Shown here: positions 55,110 through 63,974 of the stretch, in pieces
Position numbering within the stretch: position 1 is the first letter of the stretch
How the letters are laid out: every line of letters begins with the position of its first letter
Origin: Candidatus Tectimicrobiota bacterium
GTDB lineage: Bacteria; Tectomicrobia; Entotheonellia; Entotheonellales; Entotheonellaceae
Assembly (NCBI GenBank): GCA_026005175.1
Contig: BPKO01000011.1
Coordinates: 1-64,000 of the forward strand
Length of the DNA: 64,000 nt
Reading direction: 5' to 3'
Made by a program: the position numbers and the translations under genes
Notes under the pieces: model-generated
The model's database searches: none
The model's input: only the letters and a program-made list of their open reading frames with translations
What the model was told of the DNA's origin: nothing

Positions 55110-56171
55110 ATGGGCGACACCTTTCCCACTTTCCGCGCTGCGGCGGTGCAGGCCGCGCCCGTTTTTTTGGACCGTGAGGCCACGGTGGAAAAAGCCTGCG
55201 CGCTTATTGCCGAAGCGGCGCGGGGCGGCGCGCAGCTGATCGCTTTTCCCGAGGCCTACATCCCCGGCTATCCTTACTGGATCCGTCTCGACAACCCCTT
55301 TAAGACCACGCCCTTTTTCGTCGAGCTCGTCAAGAACGCCGTCGAGGTGCCCGGTCCGGCCACCGCCCGCCTGGGCGAGGCGGCCCGACAGGCCGGGGCC
55401 TACGTGGTGATCGGCGTTAACGAGCGCTCGCCCCACACCCCGGGCACCCTGTACAACACCAACCTCGTCTTTGGCCCCGAAGGCACCCTGCTCCTTAAGC
55501 ACCGCAAGCTCATGCCCACTTTTGCCGAGAAGCTGGTGTGGGGGCTGGGCGACGGCACCTCACTGCGCGTCCTGGAGACCCCCCTTGGCCGCCTAGGCAC
55601 CCTCATCTGCGGGGAAAACGCCAATCCTCTGGCGCGCTTTGCTCTGCTGGCACAGGGCGAGCAGGTGCACGTGGCCAACTACCCGGCGCTGCCAGGCGGC
55701 GATGCCGGCGGCTACGACTTGGGCAAAGAAATCGAGCTGCGCGGCGCCACCCACGCCTTTGAGGGCAAGGTCTTCACCATCGTCGTCTCGGGGGTAATCG
55801 ACGAGCGCGTGGTGGCTGCGGTGGCCGACAGCGAGGAAAAGCGGCGGCTGATGGGCGGCCCGCCGCGCAGCTTTACCGGCATCTTTGCCCCGGGCGGCCG
55901 CCTGTGCAGCGCCACCGTGCCGCCGGGCGAAGAGGGCATCGTCTATGCCGATTGCAACCTGGAAGCCCTCGTCGTGCCCAGGCTCCGCCACGATGTGGCC
56001 GGCCACTACAACCGCTTCGACCTCTTCTCCCTGTGGCTCAACCGCACGCCGCAGCAGCCCCTGTACGAACACGGTGGCGAGCGGCCGCCGACGCTGCCAG
56101 CGGCCGAGTCCGAGGTGATGGCGCTGCTGCGCGCCATCTTGGCCCGCCTGGAGGAGCGCGTTCCAGCCTAG
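55110..56171 (+). CDS. Nitrilase-family hydrolase
   Basis: A 353-residue C-N hydrolase. AAAGGAG precedes the ATG. The catalytic triad is visible: Glu in IAFPEAYIPGYPYWIRL, Lys in LLKHRKLMPTFAEKLVWG and Cys in GTLICGENANPLARFALL. The CGEN context and the length are those of true nitrilases, which turn a nitrile into acid and ammonia, rather than amidases (usually ~270 residues). Such enzymes act on aromatic or aliphatic nitriles or on cyanide; the sequence does not decide. It stands alone with its own upstream region. Confidence 0.92.
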   Translation: MGDTFPTFRAAAVQAAPVFLDREATVEKACALIAEAARGGAQLIAFPEAYIPGYPYWIRLDNPFKTTPFFVELVKNAVEVPGPATARLGEAARQAGAYVVIGVNERSPHTPGTLYNTNLVFGPEGTLLLKHRKLMPTFAEKLVWGLGDGTSLRVLETPLGRLGTLICGENANPLARFALLAQGEQVHVANYPALPGGDAGGYDLGKEIELRGATHAFEGKVFTIVVSGVIDERVVAAVADSEEKRRLMGGPPRSFTGIFAPGGRLCSATVPPGEEGIVYADCNLEALVVPRLRHDVAGHYNRFDLFSLWLNRTPQQPLYEHGGERPPTLPAAESEVMALLRAILARLEERVPA

Positions 56172-56204
56172 CGCGCCGCCTGCTTTCCCGCTTCTGTCAG
56201 CTTT

Positions 56205-56246
56205 TTGCGCCAGCGCAAAGAGGCTTCCCCGCACCGGAACTATCTT
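56205..56246 (+). promoter_or_regulatory. Crp/Fnr-type box and promoter of the hemerythrin-Mrp-NnrS operon
   Basis: Perfect TTGCG-N4-CGCAA (56205-56218), the TTG-N8-CAA form bound by Crp/Fnr proteins such as FNR, DNR and NnrR. TATCTT at 56241-56246 would place transcription start near 56253, putting the box centre about 41 bases upstream, the class II activator position. The regulator gene is not in the window. Confidence 0.6.
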
Positions 56247-56329
56247 TAAGTCCGTGACGCGGCCAACGTCCTGGTGCAGCGGGCAAAGGGGCTCTTGCGC
56301 CAGGCCCTGGCGAGCGCGGAGGAGAGGCC

Positions 56330-56764
56330 ATGAAGCTCACCGATGCCCTGCGCGGCGAACACGGCGTATTTTACGCCCAGTTTGCGCACCTTCAAGAACA
56401 GGCGGCGGCCCCGGCCCAGGTGCGCGAGCAGGTGGCGCTGCTGGCCGCCGCCTTGCAAACCCACGCCCGGCTGGAAGAGGAGCTGCTCTTTGCTGCCCTC
56501 GAACCGCATCTGGGCCCCATGGGGCCGCTGGCGGTGATGCGTATGGAACATGACGAGATCGATACCGGCTTGGCCGCGCTGCAACAGGTCGAGGAAGCAA
56601 AAGCGGCCCGCCAGCAGCTAGAGCGGCTGCTGCAGCTGGCCCGCGAGCACTTCACGAAAGAAGAGCACGTGCTTTTTGCGCTGGCCGAGCAGTATCTGGA
56701 TGGTAAAGCGCTCACCCGCCTTGGCGAGCAGTGGGCCGCCCGCCGCGGCGTTCATCTGGCCTGA
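56330..56764 (+). CDS. Hemerythrin-like (HHE) diiron protein
   Basis: A 144-residue four-helix protein. Iron-ligand candidates are in order: His11 (EHGVFYAQF), HARLEEELLF, EHDEIDTGL, HFTKEEHVLFALAEQY. HHE proteins bind O2 or NO, or help repair or sense Fe-S clusters. It is first in an operon behind a Crp/Fnr-type box. A GAGGAGAGG ribosome site precedes the ATG. Confidence 0.9.
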   Translation: MKLTDALRGEHGVFYAQFAHLQEQAAAPAQVREQVALLAAALQTHARLEEELLFAALEPHLGPMGPLAVMRMEHDEIDTGLAALQQVEEAKAARQQLERLLQLAREHFTKEEHVLFALAEQYLDGKALTRLGEQWAARRGVHLA

Positions 56765-56779
56765 GAAAGGAGGACCCTG

Positions 56780-57082
56780 ATGACGCAGGAAGAGGTCCTA
56801 AACGTCCTGCGGCACGTGATCGATCCCGAGCTGGGGATCAACGTCGTCGACCTTGGGCTCGTCTACAGCGTTGATATCCAAGACGGCCACGTGCGAGTGG
56901 CAATGACCATGACCACGCCGGCCTGTCCCTTGCACGACTACTTGCTGCAGGCGGCAGAAGCCGCCCTCTGGCAGCACCTACCGGAGGTGCAGTCGGTGCA
57001 CGTCGAGCTGGTGTGGGATCCGCCCTGGCAGCCCACGATGATGTCGGAGGCGGCCAAGCGACAACTGGAGGTAGCGCGATGA
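56780..57082 (+). CDS. DUF59 (MIP18/PaaD-like) metal-sulfur cluster assembly protein
   Basis: A 100-residue DUF59 protein: VLNVLRHVIDPELGINVVDLGLVYSVDI and VAMTMTTPACPLHDYLLQAAEAAL, with the family DPE and the TPACP cysteine. DUF59 proteins act in Fe-S cluster maturation. AAAGGAGG before the ATG; its stop overlaps the Mrp start by ATGA, matching the common DUF59-Mrp partnership. Confidence 0.92.
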   Translation: MTQEEVLNVLRHVIDPELGINVVDLGLVYSVDIQDGHVRVAMTMTTPACPLHDYLLQAAEAALWQHLPEVQSVHVELVWDPPWQPTMMSEAAKRQLEVAR

Positions 57083-58146
57083 CCCTCAAGGACCGCATCT
57101 GGCAGACGTTGCGCACCGTCCCCTACCCCGGCTACAGCCGCGACGTGGTCTCTTTTGGGCTGGTGCAGCACGTCGCCGCCTGTGGCGAGGCGGCCACCGT
57201 GACCCTGGGCATCGGCCACCTGGCCCCCGAGACGCGGGAGGCCATCGTGCAGGCGGTGCGGGAGGCGGTGCTGGCCTTGCCCGAGGTACAGACGGTGGAG
57301 ATCAAAGTGGCGCGCCCGTCGGCAGCACGGGCCCAGACCGCGGAAGCCCCGGCCTGGCGCAGCGAGATCGCCCGCGTGCTGGCCGTGGGCAGCGGCAAGG
57401 GCGGAGTGGGCAAGTCGACGGTGGCCGTCAACCTGGCCGTGGCCCTGGCCCGGCGCGGCAGCAAAGTGGGGCTGCTCGACGCCGACGTCTACGGCCCCAA
57501 TGCCCCCCGCATGCTGGGCGTGGAGCGCCTGCCGGCCAAGAAAAACGGCCGGCTGGTGCCGGCAGAGGCCTACGGCGTCAAGCTCATGTCGCTGGGCCTG
57601 CTGACCCCGGCCGAAACGCCGGTGATCTGGCGAGGACCGATGGCCGACAAGCTGCTGCGGCAGTTTCTAGGCGGTGTCGCCTGGGGTCCTCTCGACCTGC
57701 TGGTCGTTGACTTGCCGCCGGGCACGGGGGACATCGCCATTTCCATTGCCCAGCACGCCCATCCCGACAGCGCCCTGGTGGTGGTGACGCCGCAGGCCGT
57801 GGCCACGGACGACGCCCGCAAAGCCATCGCCATGTTCCGCCGCCTGCGAGTGCCGGTGCTGGGGATCGTCGAGAACATGAGTGCCTTTGTCTGCCACGTC
57901 TGCCAGACCCCGCACCGCCTCTTCGGCGAGGGCGGTGGCGCCCAGCTCGCCAGCGCCACCGGCGTCCCTTTTCTCGGCGAGGTGCCCCTGGAGCCGGCGG
58001 TGCGCGCCGGCGGCGATACGGGACAGCCGGCCGTCCTGCAGCCTTCGTCGCTGGCCGGCGCCGCCTTGGACCGCATTGCCGCGCGCCTGGGCCGCACCCT
58101 CATGGCCGAAACGGCCCGCCGTCCCGCGCCAACCATCCACCAATAA
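57079..58146 (+). CDS. mrp: Mrp/NBP35-type Fe-S carrier ATPase
   Basis: A 355-residue Fe-S cluster carrier. N-terminal ~95 residues are a second, degenerate DUF59-like domain. Then the deviant Walker A GSGKGGVGKSTVAVNLAVAL, LLDADVYGPNAPRMLG, VDLPPGTGDIAISIAQ, and the cluster-binding CxxC in FVCHVCQTPHRLFGEGGG. It is likely to load clusters into client proteins of this operon or generally. Confidence 0.94.
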   Translation: MTLKDRIWQTLRTVPYPGYSRDVVSFGLVQHVAACGEAATVTLGIGHLAPETREAIVQAVREAVLALPEVQTVEIKVARPSAARAQTAEAPAWRSEIARVLAVGSGKGGVGKSTVAVNLAVALARRGSKVGLLDADVYGPNAPRMLGVERLPAKKNGRLVPAEAYGVKLMSLGLLTPAETPVIWRGPMADKLLRQFLGGVAWGPLDLLVVDLPPGTGDIAISIAQHAHPDSALVVVTPQAVATDDARKAIAMFRRLRVPVLGIVENMSAFVCHVCQTPHRLFGEGGGAQLASATGVPFLGEVPLEPAVRAGGDTGQPAVLQPSSLAGAALDRIAARLGRTLMAETARRPAPTIHQ

Positions 58147-58180
58147 AGGCCCTGTGGGCCTACGTAGAGGAGACAAAGCG

Positions 58181-58900
58181 GTGAGTACGGTAAGCGAGGC
58201 CATCCGCCAGCACCACGCCCAGCTTATGGAGACGCTGCGCACCCACCTCGAGGCCCTGAGTGCGCCGCAGCCCGCGGGCGACGCCGCCGCCTTGCTGCGC
58301 TTTCTCAAAACCGAGCTGCTGCCCCACGCCCAAGGGGAAGAGCGCCACCTCTACCCGGCGCTCGAGCCGGTGCTCAAGACCCACGGCGACGCCACCGCCA
58401 CCATGCGGGTGGACCACGAATACATTACGGCGTATATTCGGCAGCTGGAAGAGACGGTGCAGGCCCTGCAGCAGGCCGCCGCCCAGCAGGCGACGCTGCA
58501 AGCGCAGCTGCAGCGCCTGCTGTGGCAGCTCGAAGGGCTGCTGCGCGTGCACCTGGAGAAAGAAGAGCGCGTCTACTTGCCCCTCTTTGCCCAGCACCTC
58601 CCGGAAGCAGAGCAGCAGCGGGTGCTCGCCGGCATGCACGCCGCCTACGGGGAGCCTGAGGAAAGGGCAGAGACGGTGCTCGACGTGCGGCCGCTGCCGC
58701 CGGCACAGCGCCACGGGTTGATCTTCGAGACCTTTGCGCGTTTGCAGCCTGGAGAAGCCTTCGTGCTGGTTAACGACCACGACCCCAAGCCCCTTTACTA
58801 CCAGTTCCTCCACGAAAAAGCGGGGCAGTTCTCCTGGGAGTACGTGGAGCAGGGGCCGGAGGTGTGGCGGGTGCGTATCGGCCGCACGGCGGCAAGCTGA
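58181..58900 (+). CDS. Hemerythrin plus DUF2249 protein
   Basis: A 239-residue protein. GTG at 58181 follows GAGGAG. N-terminal HHE domain (1-155): HHAQLMETLRTHLEAL, HAQGEERHLYPAL, VDHEYITAYI, HLEKEERVYLPLFAQHL. C-terminal DUF2249 (165-235): VLDVRPLPPAQRHGLIFETFARLQPGEAFVLVNDHDPKPLYYQFLHE. DUF2249 domains are frequent in NO-respiring and denitrifying bacteria. The pairing suggests NO or O2 sensing or iron trafficking. Confidence 0.9.
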   Translation: MSTVSEAIRQHHAQLMETLRTHLEALSAPQPAGDAAALLRFLKTELLPHAQGEERHLYPALEPVLKTHGDATATMRVDHEYITAYIRQLEETVQALQQAAAQQATLQAQLQRLLWQLEGLLRVHLEKEERVYLPLFAQHLPEAEQQRVLAGMHAAYGEPEERAETVLDVRPLPPAQRHGLIFETFARLQPGEAFVLVNDHDPKPLYYQFLHEKAGQFSWEYVEQGPEVWRVRIGRTAAS

Positions 58901-58913
58901 GGAGACAAGGACC

Positions 58914-59759
58914 ATGGAGCTCGTCACCGCATGGCTCGAAGCGCTGCGCTGCCAGCTGGCGGAGCGTTCTTTGCCTGTTACCGAGGTGCGCGTGGGGGTG
59001 TTTTACACTGCGGCGCGGCTGGCCAGCGGCCACGTGGGGGTGGCCTTTACCCCCCGCGACTTGCACGACACGGTGTGCTGCCCGCGCTCGGCGGCGGCGG
59101 CGCCGGCCGCTGGCCGCCTGGCAGGGCAGGAGGCCTGGGCGCTGGCGCGCGATGCCCTGGCGCCGGCGCCGCTGCGGCGGGCGGTGGGCGTGGCGGTGCT
59201 CAACGCCCTGTCGGCCCTGGCCATGGAAGAATACGGGGTGCCCGGCGGAGAGGTGATTCCCGACCTCGATGCCCTGGCCGCCGCCGGGGTGCAAGCCGGC
59301 GACCGCGTGGCGCTGGTGGGGGCTTTCACCCCGTTTATCAAAGCCCTCAAAGGGCAGGTGGGTGCCTTGTGGGTGATCGACAAGCACCCAGAGGCGCTGA
59401 AAGCCGAGGAGCAGCCGCTGTGGCGGCCGCCCGCGCAGGCTCCGGAAGTGCTGGCGCAGGCCGACGTGGCGCTCATCACCGGCTCGGCCCTGGTGGAAGG
59501 CGGGCTGGAAGGGCTTCTTGACGCCGCGCGCGGCGCGCGCACCGTGGTGCTGGCCGGCCCTACGGCCTCTCCCTGGCCGCCGCCGTTTTTTGCCCGCGGC
59601 GTGCACATTCTGGGCGGCCTGCGGGTGCGCGACGGCGAGCGGCTGCTGCAGCTGGTGAGCGAGGGCGGCTCGGGCTACTTCTTCGACGAGGCGGCGCAAA
59701 AAGTCTGCATGGTGCGCCAGGACAAGGCAGCAGGCCTCCTCCAGCGCGTGCGCCGATGA
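58914..59759 (+). CDS. DUF364 (putative heavy-metal chelation) domain protein
   Basis: A 281-residue protein. The N-terminal part (DUF4213-like) holds VGVFYTAARLASGHVGVAFTPRDLHDTVCCPRS with two adjacent cysteines, then AVGVAVLNALSALAM. The C-terminal DUF364 has GDRVALVGAFTPFIKALKG, DVALITGSALVEGGLEGLLDAAR, VVLAGPTASPWPPPFFARGV. The domain is thought to bind metal, on structural grounds only. ATG at 58914; stop overlaps the next start as ATGA, so the cluster is one operon. Confidence 0.85.
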   Translation: MELVTAWLEALRCQLAERSLPVTEVRVGVFYTAARLASGHVGVAFTPRDLHDTVCCPRSAAAAPAAGRLAGQEAWALARDALAPAPLRRAVGVAVLNALSALAMEEYGVPGGEVIPDLDALAAAGVQAGDRVALVGAFTPFIKALKGQVGALWVIDKHPEALKAEEQPLWRPPAQAPEVLAQADVALITGSALVEGGLEGLLDAARGARTVVLAGPTASPWPPPFFARGVHILGGLRVRDGERLLQLVSEGGSGYFFDEAAQKVCMVRQDKAAGLLQRVRR

Positions 59760-60118
59760 TCCACGTCCGTCGCGTCTACGACCCGCCGGCCGCCGGCGAG
59801 GGCCGGCGCTTCCTGGTGGAGCGGCTGTGGCCGCGGGGGGTGCGCCGCGACGCCCTGCAGCTTACCGCGTGGCTCAAGGAGGTGGCGCCCAGCCCAGCGC
59901 TGCGGCGCTGGTTTGCCCACGATCCGGAAAAGTGGGAGGCCTTCTGCCAGCGCTACACCGCCGAGCTGGACGCCAACCCGGCGGCGTGGCAGCCCCTGCT
60001 GGAGGCGGCCCGCCAGGGTCCCATTACGCTTCTTTACAGCGCCCGCGACCGCGAGCACAACAGCGCCGTGGTCCTCAAGGCTTACTTGCAGGCCAAGCTA
60101 AAGCAGGAAGGGCGATGA
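59756..60118 (+). CDS. DUF488 family protein
   Basis: A 120-residue DUF488 protein: VRRVYDPPAAGEGRRFLVERLWPRGVRRDALQLTAWLKEVAPSPALRRWFAHDPEKWEAFCQRY and ITLLYSARDREHNSAVVLK. The family is often near heme or nitrogen-oxide genes but has no proven activity. Coupled on both sides by ATGA overlaps. Confidence 0.88.
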   Translation: MIHVRRVYDPPAAGEGRRFLVERLWPRGVRRDALQLTAWLKEVAPSPALRRWFAHDPEKWEAFCQRYTAELDANPAAWQPLLEAARQGPITLLYSARDREHNSAVVLKAYLQAKLKQEGR

Positions 60119-61547
60119 GCGAGCACGCGGCGTCGAGCGGCGCAGCCGGCGAAACGCAGCCGCGCCCGCGCCATGCCGAGTTCTACAGCGGCTACGTGTG
60201 GGCAGCCCTGGCGCTGGCTCTAGGGGTGGGCTTTGCGCTGGGTGCCCACATGGCCATGGTGCTGGGCCTGGGGTTGCCCCTGGGGCGCGGCTTTGCCAGC
60301 TTCGTGCAGACTCATGGCCACGTGCAGCTGGTGGGCTGGACCGGCCTCTTTGTCATGGGGGTTAGCCTCTACTTCGTGCCGCGCATGGCCGGGGTGCCGC
60401 TGGCGCAGCCGCAGTGGCCCACCTTGGCCCTGTGGCTGGTGGCCGGCGGGCTGGGGCTGCGCAGCATCGGCCAGGCGCTGGCGCCGTACTTGGTAGGAAA
60501 GCCGGCCTTGGTGCCTGCGCTGTGGCTGGCAGCCGCTTCGGGGGTGCTTGAGGCAGCCGGCATCCTGCTCTACGTGGTGCTGCTGCTGCGCGTCGTCGCC
60601 GCCGCTGTTCATCCGGCAGAGCGTCCCGGCCTGCTGCAAGTGCGGCCGTACTTTGCGCTCATGCTCAGCGGCTGGGTGCTTTACGCCCTGCTCAACGCCG
60701 CGCTGCTGGTGGCCATGGCGGCGGCGCGGCAGGTGGTGGTGGCCCCGGCCTGGAATCGCCTGGCGATAGAAATTTTTCTCGGCTTCGTGCTGCTGCCGGT
60801 GGCGCTGGGCGTGTCGGTGCGCACCTTTCCCCTTTACTTGCGCCTGCCGGCGCCCACCTGGCCGGTGCGGGGCACCGCATACGTGTACGCGGTGGCCTTG
60901 CTCCTGCAGCTACTGCCGGCGCTGCCGGGGCTGCCGGCGCTACCGACCGTGGCGGCGCTGGGCCTGCTGCTGCGGGGCGGCGTGCTGTTGTGGTTTGTCT
61001 GGCAGCTCGACGTGCTCACCCGGCGGCGGCCTCCCTGGACGGTACAGCGTAAGCTGCATCCGGGGCCGCAGCGGCGCCCCACGCGCCCGGGGCTGGCCCG
61101 ACTACGGGGAGTTTGGCCGCTTCGAGCGGCTGCTGTACGCCGCTTACGTCTGGCTGGTCCTGGCAGCGGTGGGAGAGATGGCAACGGGCGCCGCAGCCCT
61201 TTTGGGCAGGCCATCGCCGGTGCCCGAAAGCGCCGTGCGCCACCTCTACCTGCTGGGCTTTATTACCCTGCTCATCTTGGGCATGGCGGTGCGCATGCTG
61301 CCCCGGCTTTTGGCACCGGCGCCAGGTGGCCAGCCCGGCGCTGGTGGAGGCCAGCTTCTGGCTGGGCAACGGTGCCGTGATAAGCCGCGTGCTGCTCTAC
61401 GTGCTGCCTGCCGGGTGGTGGCCGCCGCTACACGACGCGGCGCGCCTGGCCTTTGCTTTTTCCGGGCTGCTGGGCATGGCAGCGGTGGCCTGTCTGGCGC
61501 GCAACCTCTGGCGTACCGCCCGCGGGGAAGCGGCCGCCAGCGCGTAA
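60115..61547 (+). pseudogene. NnrS-like multi-helix membrane protein, two frameshifts
   Basis: NnrS proteins are heme- and copper-containing membrane proteins that protect against NO and related stress. ATG at 60115 overlaps the DUF488 stop. The N-terminal part has YSGYVWAALALALGVGFALGAHMAMVLGLGL, FVQTHGHVQLVGWTGLFVMGVSLYFVPRMAG, and helices with many histidines. The frame breaks near 61085 and resumes DYGEFGRFERLLYAAYVWLVLA and ESAVRHLYLLGFITLLILGMAVRMLPRLL, then breaks again near 61315 and ends VEASFWLGNGAVISRVLLYV. All helices survive across frames, so errors are likely. Confidence 0.82.
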
Positions 61548-61558
61548 GGAGAGCGAGC

Positions 61559-62070
61559 GTGCGCCTTCTCTATTTGCTGTCGGTGTGGCTGCACTTGCTG
61601 GCCGCAGCGGTGTGGATTGGCGGCATGGCCTTTCTCACCCTGGTGCTGGTGCCCATCGTGCGGCAGCCCGAGCACCGGGCGCAGGCGCCGCTGCTCATGC
61701 ATCGCACCGGCCGCCGCTTCCGCACCGTAGGCTGGACGTGCCTGCTGGTGCTGTTCTTTACCGGCCTTGTCAACCTCGTCTATCGGGGGCTCTTCTGGGC
61801 CGGCGAGCGGCCCTCTGGCGCTGCTGCAAGGGGCCTGGGGACACCTGCTGCTGCTCAAGCTCCTGCTGGTGCTGGTGATTTTTGTCCTCAGCGCCTTGCA
61901 CGACTTCTGGCTCGGCCCGCGGGGCCCCACGGCGCTGGGGCGCGCCAACCCCGCAGCGGCGGCTGCCGAACGGTGGCGGCGCCGTGCTTCCTGGCTGGGG
62001 CGCTGCACCCTGCTCTTGCGCCCTGGCGGTGGTGGCGTTAGGGGTACTGCTGGTGCGCGGCGGGCCGTGA
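61559..62070 (+). pseudogene. CopD-like membrane protein, two frameshifts
   Basis: About 170 codons. GTG at 61559 follows AAGGAG and begins LLYLLSVWLHLLAAAVWIGGMAFLTLVLVPIV, the CopD-type start with the conserved WLH..AA.WIGG. Then RTVGWTCLLVLFFTGLVNLVYRG. The frame breaks near 61805, resumes LALLQGAWGHLLLLKLLLVLVIFVLSALHDFWLGP, breaks near 62020 and ends LALAVVALGVLLVRGGP. CopD proteins move copper across the inner membrane; copper supply would fit NnrS and oxidases. Confidence 0.75.
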
Positions 62071-62075
62071 GGGGC

Positions 62076-62795
62076 TCAGGAGGGGCGAGACAGGCGGTAG
62101 GTGCGCTCAAGCTCGCTCAGGCGCGGGATGAGCTCGGAGTGGGCTTGCACGTGGAAGACGTAGCGCGGCACGTCGCGAGTGGTGCGTGCCATAAACGGCT
62201 CGCCCCAGAAGCTAAGGAGGGCTTCAGTGCCCCGCTCGGTGTCGGCAAGAATAAACGACACGCTTTCGTGCAAGCGGCACCAGTGGGGTTCGCGGACTTT
62301 GCCGTGTCCGGTACAGGCTTGCACTTTGGGCAGCACCTCCTCGTACCAGAGCGCCCTTTCGCCCTCATCGGCGATGAACTGCACCGCGGTGACGTGCGGG
62401 TTTTCGATGGCCGGCCGCAGCAAGGTGTCGAAGAGGGCCTGGGGTTTGAACATCAGCAGGCAGACGTTGAACCAGACCATGTCGCCGCGAGCGCGCTGGG
62501 CAAAGCGGGCACTGGCCGGCCGCAGCTGCCGCGGCCCGATCAGCACTACCTCAGGCGCGCGCAGCGCTGCCTGAATGTGGGTGACAGCGGTGGCAGTGCG
62601 CTCGGCGAGGGCCAGCGCCCGCTCGCGCTCTCCTTCGCGCCGCAGGTCGCGGAGAAAAAGCAGGGCGAGCAAGACCAGGGCGATGGAGAGGAGGATCTCG
62701 GCTTCGATGACGTGCAAGAAGTGCAGGAGCAGGGCAATGACGGCGGCCACGATGCCGGCGACGGCGTCCCAGTCGAGCTTGAGCAGGCGTTCCAT
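62076..62795 (-). CDS. Membrane-anchored protein of unknown function
   Basis: A 239-residue protein. Two N-terminal helices (DAVAGIVAAVIALLLHFLHVI and AEILLSIALVLLALLFL), a coiled segment (GERERALALAERTATAVTHIQAAL) and a soluble alpha/beta domain (VWFNVCLLMFKPQALFDTLLRPAIENPHVTAVQFIADEGE, PHWCRLHESVSFILAD, EPFMARTTRDVPRYVFHV). The last part recalls the phospholipase-D-like or haloacid-type C-terminal domains found after membrane anchors, but no catalytic motif is clear. Convergent with the CopD-like gene. Confidence 0.7.
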   Translation of the reverse strand: MERLLKLDWDAVAGIVAAVIALLLHFLHVIEAEILLSIALVLLALLFLRDLRREGERERALALAERTATAVTHIQAALRAPEVVLIGPRQLRPASARFAQRARGDMVWFNVCLLMFKPQALFDTLLRPAIENPHVTAVQFIADEGERALWYEEVLPKVQACTGHGKVREPHWCRLHESVSFILADTERGTEALLSFWGEPFMARTTRDVPRYVFHVQAHSELIPRLSELERTYRLSRPS

Positions 62796-62831
62796 AGCAG
62801 TCCCTTCTGCGGGTGACCGTACCCTCCTGAG

Positions 62832-62853
62832 CCGTATCGTATACGCGATACGG
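62832..62853. promoter_or_regulatory. Palindrome between divergent membrane-protein genes
   Basis: Perfect 8-bp arms CCGTATCG/CGATACGG around TATACG, with a nested CGTATACG. It lies 37 bases before the leftward gene and 36 before the rightward one, so one dimeric regulator could control both. Confidence 0.5.
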
Positions 62854-62888
62854 GCGCCAAGGACAACCCCGGCGAGGAGAAGACCGTG

Positions 62889-63974
62889 ATGGCGCTGCGG
62901 GAAAAAGTTCGCTTGCCGCTGATGGCCACCGCGCTGCTATCCCTGCTGGCGGCGCTATGGGCCGGCCTGCTGCGCCTGGGCTGGCCGCTGCCCCTGGCCT
63001 CCACCTCCCTGCCGGCGGGGCACGGCCCGCTGCTGGTGGGCGGCTTTCTGGGCACGCTTATCGGCGTTGAGCGTGCCGTGGCTTTGGGGAAAGCGTGGGC
63101 GTACGGCGCGGCGGCGTGCAGTGCCCTGGGTGCCTTGGCCCTGCTTGTGGGGCTGCCGGCGGCGCCGCTGCTAACCCTGGGCAGCGCCGGCCTGGTGGCC
63201 GAGCTCGTCTGGCTCCTGCGCCGCCAGCCGGGGCTGGCCATGGCCACCATGGCGCTGGGCGCGCTCGCCTGGCTGGTGGGCAACGCCTTGTGGCTCTGGG
63301 GCTGGCCACTGTTTCGCGTCGTGCCCTGGTGGCTGGGCTTCCTGGTGCTCACCATTGCCGGCGAGCGGCTGGAGCTTAGCCGCCTGCTGGCTTTGCCAGG
63401 CAGCGCGCGGCTGGCTTTTGCCGCCGCCGTGGGCTTGATCCTGCTGGGGCTGCTCCTCTCCCTGGGGCAAGCCGCCGCCGGGGTGCGCCTCCTCGGGGTG
63501 GGGTTGCTCGCCCTGGCCGTCTGGCTTTGGCGCTACGATGTGGCACGGCGCACGGTCCGCCAGCAGGGACTGACGCGCTACATCGCCCTCTGCTTGCTCT
63601 CTGGCTACGCCTGGCTTGGCCTGGGTGGCGCGCTGGCCCTTTACGCCGGTGCCGTAGCCGCCGGGCCCCGCTACGACGCCGTTCTTCACGCCGTTTTTGT
63701 CGGCTTTGTCTTTGCCATGATTTTTGGCCACGCCCTGGTCATCTTCCCCGCCGTGCTCGGCCGGCCGCTGCCTTACGGGCCGCACTTTTTTGCCCCCCTC
63801 GTGCTGCTGCACGCTTCGCTCCTGCTGCGCCTGGCCAGCGACCTGGGCGGCTGGGGCGCCGGGCGGCAGTGGGGTGGGCTAGGCAACGCCCTAGCCATTG
63901 CCGGGTTTTTGGGGCTGGTGGGGCAAGCGGTGCGCCGCGGGGGCCGCCTCACCCCGGCCCGCCTTCGCCGCTGA
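62889..63974 (+). CDS. NnrS-like multi-helix membrane protein
   Basis: A 361-residue integral membrane protein with about twelve helices. ATG at 62889 (a GTG lies directly before it) follows GAGGAG. Motifs: HGPLLVGGFLGTLIGVERAVALG, LTIAGERLELSRLL, and the histidine pair in DAVLHAVFVGFVFAMIFGHALVIFPAVLGRPLPYGPHFFAPLVLLHASLLLR. The His pattern resembles NnrS and heme-binding membrane proteins. It is intact, unlike the NnrS-like gene at 60115, so it may be a second copy with a related role in NO stress. Cofactor binding is inferred. Confidence 0.78.
   Translation: MALREKVRLPLMATALLSLLAALWAGLLRLGWPLPLASTSLPAGHGPLLVGGFLGTLIGVERAVALGKAWAYGAAACSALGALALLVGLPAAPLLTLGSAGLVAELVWLLRRQPGLAMATMALGALAWLVGNALWLWGWPLFRVVPWWLGFLVLTIAGERLELSRLLALPGSARLAFAAAVGLILLGLLLSLGQAAAGVRLLGVGLLALAVWLWRYDVARRTVRQQGLTRYIALCLLSGYAWLGLGGALALYAGAVAAGPRYDAVLHAVFVGFVFAMIFGHALVIFPAVLGRPLPYGPHFFAPLVLLHASLLLRLASDLGGWGAGRQWGGLGNALAIAGFLGLVGQAVRRGGRLTPARLRR

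Follow-up and report, generated by a model that had tools for sequence, protein, structure and literature searches.

A putative nitric oxide-defense and metal-center maintenance operon that shares its operator box with nosZ in a Candidatus Tectimicrobiota genome

Genes and features of the locus

The first 64,000 nucleotides of contig BPKO01000011.1 from a Candidatus Tectimicrobiota bacterium (assembly GCA_026005175.1), hereafter the window, contain a run of forward-strand genes at 56205-62070 that combines hemerythrin-like (HHE) proteins, iron-sulfur (Fe-S) assembly factors, several domains of unknown function (DUF) and membrane proteins, preceded by a perfect inverted-repeat box. Inspection of both strands over 55110-63974 showed that the co-directional run spans 56330-62070 and comprises six intact genes followed by an NnrS-like and a CopD-like gene (Table 1), with ATGA overlaps at 57079, 59756 and 60115 and gaps of 13–34 nt at the other joins. 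All six intact open reading frames (ORFs) exceed the Pfam cut-offs. A nitrilase-family gene (55110-56171) ends 33 bases before the box and lies outside the unit. No strong internal promoter was found on the forward strand within the unit, the single 9/12 match being located inside the fourth gene. The genes are predicted to be co-transcribed.

The NnrS-like and CopD-like genes are not intact ORFs, as the coding sequence of each is distributed among two or three frames that are tiled by intact homologs from other genomes; the intact homolog of the CopD-like gene at locus L102 passes the CopD model at 49.9 bits. As a clade II-like nosZ gene and the GAPDH gene (L055:10103-11213) are likewise split in this assembly, a pattern indicative of indel errors, the frameshifts are likely a result of sequencing or assembly error, with real decay as a less likely possibility. 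An earlier note made on this DNA had described eight genes on one strand joined by overlaps or short gaps, at 56205-62070, and had named separate promoters splitting the cluster as a refutation. The direction, the joins, the six intact genes and the lack of a strong internal promoter all agree with that description, whereas the frameshifts in the last two genes had been missed and the related gene for NnrS2, further downstream, had been left outside the range.

Table 1. Positions of the features of the operon and of the downstream NnrS2 gene in the window.
Feature	Position	Strand	Basis and remarks
Putative NnrR/DNR-type operator, TTGCGCCAGCGCAA	56205-56218	+	Exact match; AGAGG directly after (CAAAGA extension)
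-10-like hexamer TATCTT	56241-56246	+	Sequence geometry
HHE hemerythrin-like di-iron protein, 144 aa	56330-56764	+	PF01814, 66.9 bits
DUF59/MIP18-type Fe-S assembly protein	56780-57082	+	PF01883, 82.8 bits
Mrp/ApbC/NUBPL Fe-S carrier ATPase, N-terminal DUF59	57079-58146	+	PF10609, 307 bits
HHE-DUF2249 fusion, 239 aa	58181-58900	+	PF01814, 74.0 bits; PF10006, 108.3 bits
DUF4213-DUF364 protein, putative metal chelation	58914-59759	+	PF04016, 129.9 bits
DUF488-N3i (Pfam "inactive DUF488-N3 subclade")	59756-60118	+	PF22752, 159.7 bits
NnrS-like polytopic membrane protein	60115-61545	+	PF05940, 26.3 bits on middle fragment (Pfam cut-off 28); frameshifts near 61090 and 61330
CopD/DUF4149-like membrane protein	61557-62070	+	PF05425, 29.7 bits on fragment (Pfam cut-off 32.1); frameshifts near 61815 and near C-terminus
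NnrS2, 362 aa, 12-helix membrane protein	62886-63974	+	Predicted heme-copper oxidase/nitric oxide reductase fold

An operator shared with nosZ and a candidate regulator

The box upstream of the operon, TTTTGCGCCAGCGCAAAG at 56203-56220, fits the NnrR operator consensus ctTTGcgnnnncgCAAag, which is the form given by Rodionov et al. 2005 (PMC1274295). A box of the same TTGCG-N4-CGCAA type, TTGCGTCGGCGCAA, is found before norE of Bradyrhizobium (B.) diazoefficiens, a gene with about 105-fold dependence on NnrR (PMC6710368). The chance expectation for the pattern is 0.17 per 64-kb window. The box center (56211.5) lies 29.5 nt before the -10-like hexamer and, judged from this geometry only, would be at -41.5 if transcription starts near 56253, in agreement with the class II position claimed in the earlier note.

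An identical 14-mer is present upstream of a clade II nosZ operon in the same genome (G000:C6:121744), where CTTTGCGCCAGCGCAAAG is situated 246 bases before the nosZ start. The two boxes have 17 of 18 bases in common, spacer included, and constitute two of the five perfect sites in the genome; two of the other three lie inside genes (tig-like and ABC permease) and one where there are no confident gene calls. A second genomic near-match, at C14:63921, was set aside as it is located inside a gene for a GAF protein. The identity of NosZ was assigned from NCBIfam and PDB matches, nosD then follows downstream, and the nosZ gene itself (L019:9991-12025, in G000:C6) is broken into several frames and contains one in-frame TGA.

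Two Crp/Fnr helix-turn-helix genes in the genome exceed the Pfam cut-off, one on contig C4 with a CRP-like recognition helix (SRETMTR) and one on contig C6 with an Fnr-like helix (TLYTVSR), in which the Ser-Arg pair is kept and a tyrosine replaces the glutamate of the Fnr recognition helix. The C6 gene is the sole Fnr-type gene detected in the genome and is found 1.3 kb from the nosZ box. The C6 protein contains no cysteine and therefore cannot hold an Fnr-type Fe-S cluster, which makes a heme-type sensor likely. Judged by sequence, the C6 regulator, of the DNR/NnrR kind, is the candidate for control of the operon through predicted binding to the box; it probably also controls the nosZ operon, and the two operons appear to be switched on together. 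The search for a Crp/Fnr regulator proposed in the earlier note thus returned one Fnr-type gene close to an identical box, and relatives of this gene adjoin the module together with the same box elsewhere.

These features also have to be weighed against a different signal, as the operon could belong to a general, FixK-like low-oxygen regulon that mainly serves respiration and Fe-S supply under anoxia, with nitric oxide (NO) as a side issue. The box resembles FixK2 boxes as well (TTG(A/C)-N6-(T/G)CAA; PMC6710368), the C6 regulator is without Fe-S ligands, nosZ is itself an anoxic gene, and the genome encodes heme-copper subunits of cbb3 type, two of aa3 type and one of B type with an HPIVY motif. 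The cbb3 operon, however, lacks a perfect box, and the HHE and NnrS families are known from NO regulons (PMC1274295). Together with the regulators flanking other copies of the module (see below), this makes the low-oxygen explanation unlikely.

Neighborhood of the module in other genomes

To survey the neighborhood, 84,980 species genomes were scanned with the HHE-DUF2249 protein as anchor, giving 80 loci, and a further 18 from whole-genome relatives brought the total to 98. Relatives from the host's own family numbered just three, and one more came from its class. Genes within 4 kb of the anchor were counted as near and those in the outer flanks (4–10 kb) as far, the latter serving as internal control. 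Strong near/far contrasts were found for NnrS2 (47/5), DUF59 (41/2), NnrS (29/2) and Crp (15/1), and less frequent families showed the same direction: Mrp and HHE (7/0 each), DUF1858 (4/0) and DUF364 (3/0), with nitrilase at 0/1. DUF488 was weakly enriched (9/3). CopD, with 6 near and 7 far, was not enriched and was rejected as a core member; any role for it in the operon would be conjectural. The clustering anticipated in the earlier note accordingly stood for DUF59, NnrS, Mrp, HHE and DUF364, weakly for DUF488, and not for CopD.

The closest relatives are L081 (genome G351) and L102 (a bin labelled Armatimonadota), both of which keep the gene order. L081 reads DUF1858-HHE-DUF59-Mrp-HHE-DUF2249-NnrS2 with Crp, CopD and DUF488 divergent, and L102 reads DUF364-DUF1858-HHE-DUF59-Mrp-HHE-DUF2249-NnrS2 with Crp and CopD divergent. 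L100 and L101 carry HHE-DUF2249-DUF59-DUF364 with NnrS2 further on, which ties DUF364 to the module in these two loci as well as in L102. A longer version of the unit under a divergent NsrR/RirA-like gene was observed at L100:9052-20090, which also carries genes for a ferredoxin, PAS, cupin, CopD-like, HHE, NDH-2, DUF488 and a weakly COX1-like protein. A search of viral contigs for DUF364 found nothing, and the plasmid matches to DUF364 had neighbors of siderophore-type iron transport and methanol dehydrogenase (Paracoccus) or unrelated ones (Azoarcus), and not this module.

The operator was found to be conserved with the module. Boxes before module genes in L081, L103, L113, L137, L141 and L174 share the CAAAGA extension, and a box is also present in L135; L113 has a TTGAT-type half-site, and the operator therefore varies. 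The pattern TTG-N8-CAAAGAC occurs at 14 sites in the survey DNA compared to a mean of 1.4 over 300 permuted patterns, the other 299 of which never reach 14. A box upstream of module genes was seen in 5 of 10 loci with a relative of the C6 regulator and in 2 of the 88 without one (Fisher p = 7e-5, for loci that are not independent).

A second type of regulator adjoins other copies of the module. The divergent Rrf2-family protein of L100 scores almost the same against NsrR (125.6 bits, cut-off 182) as against RirA (125.2 bits), and on sequence match alone NsrR and the iron regulator RirA are not told apart. With this gene as query, NsrR/Rrf2-type genes were found in nine survey loci, always within 4 kb of the anchor and never beyond; four of the nine, the query's own locus included, are at least 45% identical and the rest are distant. 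As NsrR senses NO and not oxygen, these nine copies speak against the low-oxygen explanation, with the reservation that NsrR and RirA tie as best match. In very different bacteria, the same module thus appears to be flanked by regulators of two unrelated families known for NO sensing, which we regard as the strongest in silico argument for an NO signal.

Could the gene run instead be a coincidental series of housekeeping and stress genes without a common role? Neither CopD nor the weakly enriched DUF488 stands out clearly in the survey, DUF364 is found in only 3 of 98 loci, and the ORFs at the 3' end are broken. Such an origin is disfavored and highly improbable, given the strong near/far contrast for several families, the order HHE-DUF59-Mrp-HHE-DUF2249 kept in L081 and L102, and the conserved operator.

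Another explanation is that the set is a maturation and sensing system dedicated to one respiratory enzyme, either NosZ or a molybdenum reductase, in line with what has been proposed for the Thermus DUF2249 proteins DrpA and DrpB, the loss of which leaves nitrate reductase made but inactive (PMC6282519). Thermus locus L080 has genes for DUF2249, DUF1858-DUF2249, protoglobin and DUF59 downstream of narI and a nitrate/nitrite transporter, induction of DUF2249 genes during haloarchaeal denitrification reaches 8.65 log2 (PMC11218638), and NosZ co-occurs with complete modules: among 29 genomes carrying all or part of the module, 8 have a complete clade II NosZ, not counting the split copy of the window genome, and these 8 include 4 of the 5 whose modules are closest. 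The modules are, however, located outside nar and nos operons (nosZ is approximately 9 kb away in L102 and on a different contig in both G351 and the window genome), a complete NosZ was not seen in several module genomes, and narG gave no match above cut-off in the window genome. We therefore consider dedication to a single enzyme improbable.

Predicted properties of the encoded proteins

Both HHE domains found in the genome are encoded by the operon, and both keep the pattern of four His and two Glu of di-iron repair proteins. The ligands of the first HHE protein are complete (H11, H45, E49, H78, H107, E111) in a pattern common to the L081 homolog, and its nearest solved structure is YtfE. 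Judged by architecture and score, the HHE genes do not encode RIC proteins, as the 144-aa protein is without ScdA_N and scores 27 bits against a RIC cut-off of 204.7 bits. The DUF59 protein carries the conserved cysteine of TPACP and has SUF_assoc as its best NCBIfam match, below cut-off. Mrp has the P-loop GKGGVGK and a CHVC (CxxC) motif; in the Mrp proteins of L081 and L102 the P-loop is kept and the Fe-S-carrying CxxC is lost, and a carrier role may therefore not be universal. The DUF364 protein has both its DUF4213 and DUF364 domains above cut-off and solved relatives in the PDB (3l5o and 3npg), and DUF364 is described by Pfam as putative heavy-metal chelation.

A reverse-strand gene (62076-62795) separates NnrS2 from the operon, and NnrS2 is without the box. 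The product of this intervening gene, 239 aa long, is hydrophobic at its N-terminus and has no match in Pfam. A perfect 8-bp inverted repeat, CCGTATCG-N6-CGATACGG, was observed upstream of NnrS2 at 62832-62853 and could be an operator of another regulator. NnrS2 itself has no Pfam or NCBIfam match, and profile comparison gave a distant tie (92%) to an NnrS-like alignment; of its 52 homologs in the survey, 47 are within 4 kb of HHE-DUF2249. An AlphaFold2 model from a 33-member alignment, with a predicted local distance difference test (pLDDT) score of 95.6, matches heme-copper oxidase subunit I over the whole length, namely cbb3 CcoN (Z 28.9, 350 residues, 3.5 Å), and also NorB of cNOR (Z 26.5 and 25.2). 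H46, H268 and H282 are the only invariant histidines among the 33 sequences. As helices 6 (142-167) and 7 (172-191) contain no invariant histidine, a normal CuB/FeB site is unlikely, while H46 (helix 2) and H268 (helix 10) are positioned in the model to suit one bis-His heme. NnrS2 would thus represent a heme-copper/nitric oxide reductase (NOR) fold that apparently lacks the copper site, a feature relevant to how this superfamily was built and reused.

Interpretation and comparison with known systems

We propose, with a probability of roughly three in four (0.74), that 56205-62070 is an NO-defense and metal-center maintenance operon under the cysteine-free DNR/NnrR-kind Crp/Fnr regulator. NO or nitrosative conditions would activate the C6 regulator, likely through a heme-type sensor, and the regulator would then bind TTGCG-N4-CGCAA at -41.5 and, as a class II activator, recruit RNA polymerase. 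The two di-iron HHE proteins would bind or remove NO or join in the repair of nitrosylated iron centers, DUF59 and Mrp would rebuild and deliver Fe-S clusters, and DUF364 may bind released metal, while the NnrS-like protein and the downstream NnrS2 would hold heme and limit NO damage at the membrane. The nitrosative-stress and metal-center repair function suggested in the earlier note is in this way supported by the neighborhood survey, the Fnr-type regulator with its shared box and the NsrR-like genes flanking other copies.

Several observations weigh against this proposal. The perfect box pattern is not enriched genome-wide (5 sites, and 5 for the reversed control), and its significance therefore rests on position and conservation rather than on frequency. 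The eight related genomes with a complete clade II NosZ have no such box at their nosZ operons, so the shared operator is established for the window genome only. In the window genome, a 77%-complete assembly, no NirK was found, matches to the D1 type (NirS) were weak and no NOR candidate was seen; the NO source is consequently not evident, and the host may be a nitrous oxide (N2O) reducer that meets NO made by others. The HHE-DUF2249 gene is absent from three further members of the family, the survey used a protein of the window itself as anchor and sampled loci that are not independent, and the broken NnrS and CopD frames and the lack of CopD enrichment count on the same side.

A more specific and rather speculative extension, which we consider unlikely as it stands, is that the module provides NO handling for N2O reducers without a classical NO reductase. 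HHE-DUF2249 would be the soluble partner of NnrS2, the pair would bind, scavenge or turn over NO, and DUF364 together with DUF59-Mrp would recycle the released iron.

DUF2249, DUF364, DUF488-N3i and NnrS2 have no settled function, and the tie to an NO response through operator, regulator and neighborhood gives each of them a testable role. For N2O reducers, the same tie predicts which bacteria tolerate NO while consuming N2O. DUF2249 has been linked to denitrification (PMC6282519, PMC11218638 and PMC1274295), and in the open-access literature, subscription papers being outside the scope of the search, no report turned up that connects DUF364 or DUF488 to NnrS and hemerythrins in such a way.

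Compared to known systems, the Thermus drpAB locus (PMC6282519), a nitrate-respiration locus, likewise unites DUF2249, DUF1858 and DUF59 with a weakly heme-copper-like protein, but HHE, Mrp and DUF364 were not detected there, and it is DnrT-regulated, nar-linked and a proposed nitrate sensor. On the Thermus brockianus plasmid (L080:12225-15790), genes for a protein with a protoglobin domain and for a 144-aa protein that is weakly COX1-like were observed between those for DrpB and DUF59, in the drp locus beside the nar genes. YtfE/RIC proteins (ScdA, DnrN) share the HHE four-helix domain with complete di-iron ligands, whereas the window HHE lacks ScdA_N; a separate DUF1858-like protein is encoded beside HHE in L081 and L102, and not in the window. 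NnrS2 resembles subunit I of heme-copper oxidases and NO reductases in its 12 helices and in the whole-length structural match of the predicted model, but differs in having approximately 13% identity, about 100 fewer residues and no invariant histidine in helices 6 and 7, the site of the three CuB/FeB histidines in those enzymes.

The closest counterparts are the NnrR/DNR and NsrR regulons (nnrS, dnrN/ytfE, COG4309; PMC1274295). They differ in that HHE, DUF59, Mrp, DUF2249 and DUF364 are here combined in a single operon, in that the host apparently belongs to none of the taxa studied there, and in that DUF364 and NnrS2 are not among the members named in the portion of that study used here. The operon shares with them the operator consensus, NnrS-like and hemerythrin-like members, an NsrR- or Crp/Fnr-type regulator adjoining the genes and nos genes preceded by a box with the same sequence, and would represent a variant form of these known regulons.

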